Below are positions 45,530 to 49,078 of a stretch of 64,000 nt of DNA, piece after piece. Every line of letters starts with the position of its first letter. The first letter of the stretch is position 1. The DNA is from Roseovarius sp. MMSF_3350 (GTDB taxonomy: Bacteria > Pseudomonadota > Alphaproteobacteria > Rhodobacterales > Rhodobacteraceae): contig NZ_JASHIZ010000002.1 in NCBI RefSeq assembly GCF_030733425.1, forward strand, positions 124,001 to 188,000, given 5' to 3'. The notes beneath the pieces were generated by a model that searched no databases, was not told where the DNA came from, and saw nothing but the letters and a program-made list of their open reading frames with translations. Both the position numbers and the translations under genes were made by a program.

Positions 45530-49078
<3,549 letters not shown>

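Follow-up and report, generated by a model that had tools for sequence, protein, structure and literature searches.

The 64,000-nt stretch of DNA from Roseovarius sp. MMSF_3350 that we analysed (the window; its source genome is G000 below) carries a complete dnaE gene, the product of which contains the Pfam domains PHP, DNA_pol3_alpha, DNA_pol3_finger and HHH_6 and matches the E. coli DNA polymerase III alpha subunit. A short palindrome lies inside the part that encodes HHH_6, and two related palindromes lie outside genes elsewhere in the window. The features are as follows:

45530-49078, plus strand: dnaE, DNA polymerase III alpha subunit, 1182 aa (open reading frame list; Pfam; match to E. 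coli alpha, 5fku_A, E 4.9e-245)
47996-48292, plus strand: HHH_6 (PF14579) part of DnaE, residues 823-921, which holds the insertion (Pfam)
48137-48157, plus strand: 21-nt REP hairpin GCCCCGGA-TCAGG-TCCGGGGC, 8-bp stem, codons 870-876 (sequence, hairpin listing, covariance model)
48134-48157, plus strand: 24-nt loop excess over the close relative G034, comprising the tail GAG and the hairpin (loop lengths of 71 and 63 residues, and DNA; exact edges ambiguous by alignment)
48134-48160, plus strand: 27-nt unit common to the dnaE copy and the two intergenic copies, 81% identity (repeat family D2)
39036-39062, plus strand: intergenic REP copy GAG-GTCCCGGG-TCAGG-CCCGGGAC-GGG, hairpin at 39039-39059 (hairpin and repeat listings, model; outside genes by the coding-frame test)
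40527-40553, plus strand: second intergenic REP copy, an identical 27-mer, hairpin at 40530-40550 (hairpin and repeat listings, model, coding-frame test)

A first-pass annotation of the window had drawn attention to the hairpin in dnaE, with its 8-bp arms and the loop TCAGG, and to two intergenic 21-bp repeats of the same architecture, and all three are present. Codon 870 starts at 48137 and the hairpin is exactly in frame, its 21 nt being read as A-P-D-Q-V-R-G. The peptide near residue 870 had been described as rich in Gly and Glu; the position is right, but these residues are found at the flanks of APDQVRG (EEAPDQVRGGGGE with its neighbours) and not throughout. The 71 nt around the site give an RNA folding z of -2.48 with a best predicted fold that does not use the REP stem, and we claim no RNA role for the hairpin. 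When eight sources were searched with Rfam at the gathering score, there was no match to the REP or to other palindromic inserts, the sole match being a tRNA at 30865-30936.

The dnaE palindrome belongs to a REP-like family dispersed in the genome. It shares its layout (tail GAG, 8-bp stem, loop TCAGG) with both intergenic 27-mers, and compensatory changes separate their stems from its own. A covariance model (R1), built from 35 copies of which the dnaE copy is one, scores that copy at 46.8 bits (E 3.5e-9) in a whole-genome search and finds 129 copies in G000 at E<=0.05 (150 candidates scored), which supplies the genome-wide count that had been suggested as a check. All 35 aligned copies have a stem of 8 bp and a loop of 5 nt; pairing is kept in 97.9% of the stem cells, and double-sided changes occupy 27 cells, where shuffles give 7.0 and slid controls 0-2. 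Among the 129 copies, the loop reads TCAAG in 44 and TCAGG in 36, and the unpaired 3-nt tail is GAG in 89. Neighbouring copies within 100 bp of each other (28 pairs) are mostly arranged head-to-head (16), with 10 head-to-tail and 2 tail-to-tail. Searching with a 19-nt core at up to 3 mismatches finds only the dnaE site in the window, where shuffling gives an expectation of 0.08 matches for the consensus; at up to 2 mismatches, the 4.1 Mb genome has 65 strand matches (one place being counted on both strands) compared to none for a reversed control. The genome also contains tandem arrays of five copies at 45-bp spacing (G000:C36:73879-74087) and of three at 24-bp spacing (G000:C11:344914-344985). 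Elsewhere in the window there is a 78-nt direct repeat, 88% identical (26943-27020 and 27170-27247), the first copy of which has a perfect 8-bp-arm hairpin at 26997-27015.

The insertion is lineage-specific, as the first-pass annotation had supposed. The DnaE loop segment is 71 residues long in the window, in G006 and in R. confluentis (L060, 98% identical to the DnaE studied here), 63 residues (24 nt shorter) in G034, and 56 residues in 60 of the first 98 Rhodobacteraceae segments. Most homologues read in the family lack the segment, so the outcome that the annotation had named as refuting its idea, a segment common to all homologues, is not what is seen. The three carriers and G034 differ pairwise by 6.0–6.8% in dnaE over 2157 columns, and the hairpin is intact in the three species, with 27 nt identical despite a dnaE divergence of about 6%. 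Such identity is not surprising at this divergence, and we do not use it as evidence for the explanation preferred below. A protein tree nests G034 among the carriers, as expected for a loss, and a DNA tree groups the three carriers without G034 at 68/89. By alignment to 5fku_A, residues 858 and 859 of E. coli alpha flank the insertion point, which lies after the helix-hairpin-helix. An AlphaFold2 model places residues 866–878 (pLDDT <50) between helices 853–867 and 886–892, but is poor overall (mean pLDDT 62, pTM 0.40, 399 of 1182 residues below 50) and so suggests only weakly that the site is an exposed surface loop.

Related repeats are abundant in some relatives and missing from others. 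At E<=0.001 the model matches 101 times in G006, where one copy is in the DnaE loop, and 76, 16 and 12 times in the other Roseovarius G034, G030 and G003, where none is. Counts elsewhere are 85 in G352, 74 in G079, 67 in G139, 66 in G157, 55 in G403, 33 in G285 and 3 in G415, with none in G013, G021 and G429. In a family-wide draw with stricter filters, 86 of 394 genomes had matches at E<=1e-4. From genomes with at least 13 matches (18 candidates scored per genome) we took a REP-rich set of 42 genera, in 41 of which the DnaE loop could be read.

The same DnaE loop holds REPs in other genera, in several forms. Those of G285 and Mangrovicoccus algicola (L122) are of the same class and have the same sequence over the part compared. 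G157 has a head-to-head dimer, G352 a dimer with one decayed arm, G139 a tail-to-tail pair, G211 a dimer, G109 two dimers in tandem and G151 a decayed copy; G403 and G175 also have a REP in the loop. In genera other than Roseovarius the insert is decaying at L264, L268 and L317. When REP-rich and REP-poor genomes are compared, 10 of 41 have a REP in the loop (9 clear, 1 decayed) against none of 45 (n=86; Fisher p 3e-4, or 8e-4 without G151), though the REP-poor loops were not a random draw, some having been picked for long spans, and the count leaves out the other Roseovarius (G034, G030, G003, G006). If copies landed in proportion to gene length, only 0.12–0.24 of the 41 genomes would be expected to have one in this loop, taking each genome to have 3 or 6 in-gene copies, and about 0.6 with the 15 in-gene copies that the sample from G139 (below) allows.

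A tree of 157 DnaE segments, which excludes the loop itself and does not include G151, requires 9 changes in REP presence, of which at least 7 are forced by strong branches. We read these as about eight gains plus one change in G034, with the sisters G139 and G109 counted once. Shuffled labels need 10.8 changes on average and as few as 9 in 6 of 500 cases, meaning that the carriers are slightly clustered. A class-wide search for DnaE matched 276 of 289 genomes; among the matches listed, the longest span outside the family is 471 nt, compared to 498 nt here, which we regard as weak evidence.

Other insertions are found in or near the gene. When 80 dnaE loci were searched with the model there were four matches, namely the loops of L060 and L122 and two just past the L064 gene. 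The latter form a pair (4013-4078) immediately beyond where the dnaE match ends, and further pairs (L055 2646-2711, L311 2651-2720, L313 323-390) and a single copy (L049 779-807) were judged by distance only to lie beyond the gene. In L114 and L309 the DnaE loop is occupied by long inserts that do not match the REP; the loop of L309 (G250) is 33 residues longer than the common form and, by eye, contains another GC-rich palindrome. Four genomes have a different, unrelated palindromic insert in the same loop, close to GCTCATCCGCCC-nn-GCGGGCGGCTTCGC in sequence (L033 ~1731, G030; L118 ~3101; L152 ~1731, G415; L168 ~324, G079, minus strand).

A similar picture emerges for isoleucyl-tRNA synthetase. 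In G000, three of the 129 copies pass a test for the same coding frame on both sides, those in dnaE, ileS and bchB, with two weak candidates left uncounted; for the latter two, the Pfam matches fit a protochlorophyllide reductase subunit (bchB) and a class I synthetase (ileS). In ileS two copies are inserted head-to-head, and G006 and G034 are 66 nt shorter there and have no REP. The loop of what we take from its sequence to be IleRS, just before WTTTPWT, holds REPs in six genera (G000, G433, G151, G328, G139 and G405; loci L319, L320, L321, L322, L325 and L335). This is a lower bound, and 6 of 30 is a biased fraction: the loops read were the 30 best-scoring of 43 matched genomes (44 queried), and the query contained the REP peptide. 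By eye, 20 sampled loci from G139 gave clear in-gene REPs in bchB, an lpd-like gene, valS and pepN, and 20 from G352 gave one in hyuA, these gene names being ones that we presume from recognition of the sequences. The pattern used on these 40 loci was a loose one: 91 sites were examined and 15 passed, five being judged clear and one (L371) doubtful.

The forward copies share one reading frame. The 12 scored in 11 dnaE loci and the 5 scored in ileS all follow a single codon phase, whose peptide is E[AV]P[GD]Q[AV]R or closely resembles it, and by eye the sixth ileS locus (L321) and the dnaE of G151 fit it as well. Partner copies in reverse orientation use two other frames. The bchB copy of G000 is an exception to the shared frame, being read as RPGLDPGP, and none of the forward copies scored uses GPGSSPGR, a frame that is open and looks harmless. 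Codon usage as a reason for the choice of frame was dropped, since used and unused frames are not told apart by GC3.

The repeat in dnaE is a member of a dispersed family and was inserted in frame, and we consider it likely that such REP-like repeats are tolerated in permissive loops. A REP monomer (tail GAG, 8-bp stem, loop TCARG) would have entered the gene before at least three Roseovarius species diverged, adding a number of bases divisible by three, and is translated as EAPDQVRGG. It would have been tolerated because the site, just past the helix-hairpin-helix, is an interhelical loop that varies in length. Copies in most other in-gene places would have been purged. The inserted residues probably have little effect, and the single reading frame was probably kept because this peptide is soluble and near neutral. 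The long inserts without REPs in the same loop (L114, L309) point to tolerance. However, REPs at one loop in 10 of 41 genomes are far above the expectation from random landing, and tolerance alone may not suffice to explain the recurrence: random landing with tolerance predicts a spread over many permissive loops, neutrality does not predict that GPGSSPGR is avoided, and the refilling of the same two loops, with the forward copies in one frame, shows more regularity than tolerance would lead one to expect.

On another reading, REPs would enter the same few essential-enzyme loops again and again, with monomers in one orientation and frame, either because whatever mobilises them targets these loops or because E[AV]P[GD]Q[AV]R is selected. 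We give this a modest chance. If true, the repeat would supply a standard protein loop time after time and would not be merely tolerated junk. As to targeting, a preference at the level of DNA would make the dnaE and ileS loops hot spots with a fixed orientation for the REP-moving machinery, consistent with insertion at one dnaE loop in about eight lineages, the second recurrent loop in ileS, the common codon phase and the small number of hits expected by chance. Comparison of filled and empty dnaE and ileS sites by eye, however, reveals neither a target duplication nor a common target motif, the insertion edges vary between lineages and the dnaE loop also accepts long inserts that are not REPs, leaving such a preference rather doubtful.

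Selection, the other route, would require the REP peptide to alter the polymerase, for instance in its fidelity or its contact with clamp or DNA, a role of the kind on which Di Nocera et al. speculate for replication and repair genes (PMC3733652). Repeated gain in an essential polymerase, the common peptide frame and a hairpin intact in three species with about 6% dnaE difference could be taken this way. Yet the insert is missing from one of four close species and is decaying in other genera, and the same peptide in IleRS and, with names assigned by eye, in ValRS, BchB, PepN and others argues against a polymerase-specific role; we think adaptation improbable.

A single ancient insertion, or horizontal transfer of dnaE, could in principle account for all carriers, which lie within one family and are slightly clustered on the tree, and the sisters G139 and G109 may indeed share one event. 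As a general account it is very improbable in view of the forms found (monomer, head-to-head, tail-to-tail and double dimer, with different flanking residues) and of the 9 changes on the tree, at least 7 of them forced.

The palindromes, with an unpaired motif on one side and 16 of 28 close pairs head-to-head, resemble REPINs, which would implicate a resident tyrosine transposase (RAYT) in moving the repeats. Two of the dnaE-loop carriers, G157 and G403, do have Y1 transposases, with one gene in G157 (L390) and five in G403 (L389, L392–L395). Against this, Y1_Tnp is absent from all 8 Roseovarius and from 41 of the 44 genomes queried, including most carriers (the third positive, G306, being marginal), while the same search is positive in 5 of 14 control genomes, and no GTAG tag is found in the 35 aligned copies. 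A resident RAYT as the general cause is thus unlikely and largely refuted, though a past or trans-acting RAYT may have been at work; we give the whole idea very little weight. Lastly, although the window has perfect 8-bp-arm hairpins at 18 places (24 listings, loops of 3–8 nt), a chance palindrome in GC-rich coding sequence is refuted by the expectation of 0.08 core matches per window, by the 65 family matches against none in the reversed control, and by the absence of the segment from most homologues read.

Whichever force refills them, loops that have been refilled in several genera, and that are filled or empty among close species (ileS of G000 compared to G006 and G034), offer a place to catch the process and let the importance of the inserted peptide be tested. 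They also warn annotators that long loops in DnaE and IleRS can be repeat-derived. How REPs of the CGTC type spread without a transposase, and why they are present in genes of replication, repair and translation, are questions that the 2013 survey left open (PMC3733652).

That survey (Di Nocera, De Gregorio and Rocco 2013; PMC3733652) provides the closest known system, the CGTC-tagged REPs, which it describes in all orders of Alphaproteobacteria, with no transposase partner, and with some copies inside replication, repair and tRNA-synthetase genes. The Roseovarius repeats are like them in being alphaproteobacterial, in having an 8-bp stem (8–9 bp there) and a 5-nt loop (4–5 nt there), in the 3-nt unpaired tail at the other end, in the predominance of head-to-head pairs and in the lack of an associated transposase as judged by Y1_Tnp, a search that covers the Y1 class only and is positive in 3 of 44 genomes. 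They differ in the tag: the published family has an unpaired CGTC (or TGTC or CCTC), whereas in a fixed register the 129 copies read CGTC in 5, NCCC in 54, CGCC in 10 and CGCA in 8, and the dnaE copy reads CTCC in its row of the 35-copy alignment. With the register clean (105 copies, 24 being left out), the 5 CGTC copies all have A at the outer stem position. The first two stem pairs are A-T in the published family, compared to AT/AT in 20, GT/AC in 54, GC/GC in 13 and others in 18 of the 105 here, and the tail is CCA there and CTC here on the tag strand. Head-to-tail pairs, called negligible in the survey, make up 10 of 28. The survey also states that REPs of one functional category sit at different sites, Xanthomonas recB excepted, unlike the one dnaE loop used in about eight lineages here.

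Other systems are less close. Palindromic elements of Rickettsia, which the first-pass annotation had aptly named for comparison, resemble the present repeats, going by their description in the survey (PMC3733652), in that RPE-4 and RPE-6 are palindromic and lie in frame inside genes; they are equated there with CGTC-4 and CGTC-1 repeats. GTAG REPs and REPINs with RAYT are alike in being short palindromes in head-to-head pairs, and unlike in their tag and in the Y1 transposase that most genomes here lack. A literature search, judged by titles, found no report of these REPs in Roseovarius or Rhodobacteraceae. The singular oddity that the annotation saw in a palindrome within this essential polymerase does not hold, given the eight or so lineages and the REP already reported inside dnaE of Rickettsia conorii (PMC3733652). 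With that report and the CGTC architecture already published, the REP in dnaE is of a known kind, and what sets the Roseovarius family apart is that most copies have lost the tag and that one loop in dnaE and one in ileS have been used repeatedly.
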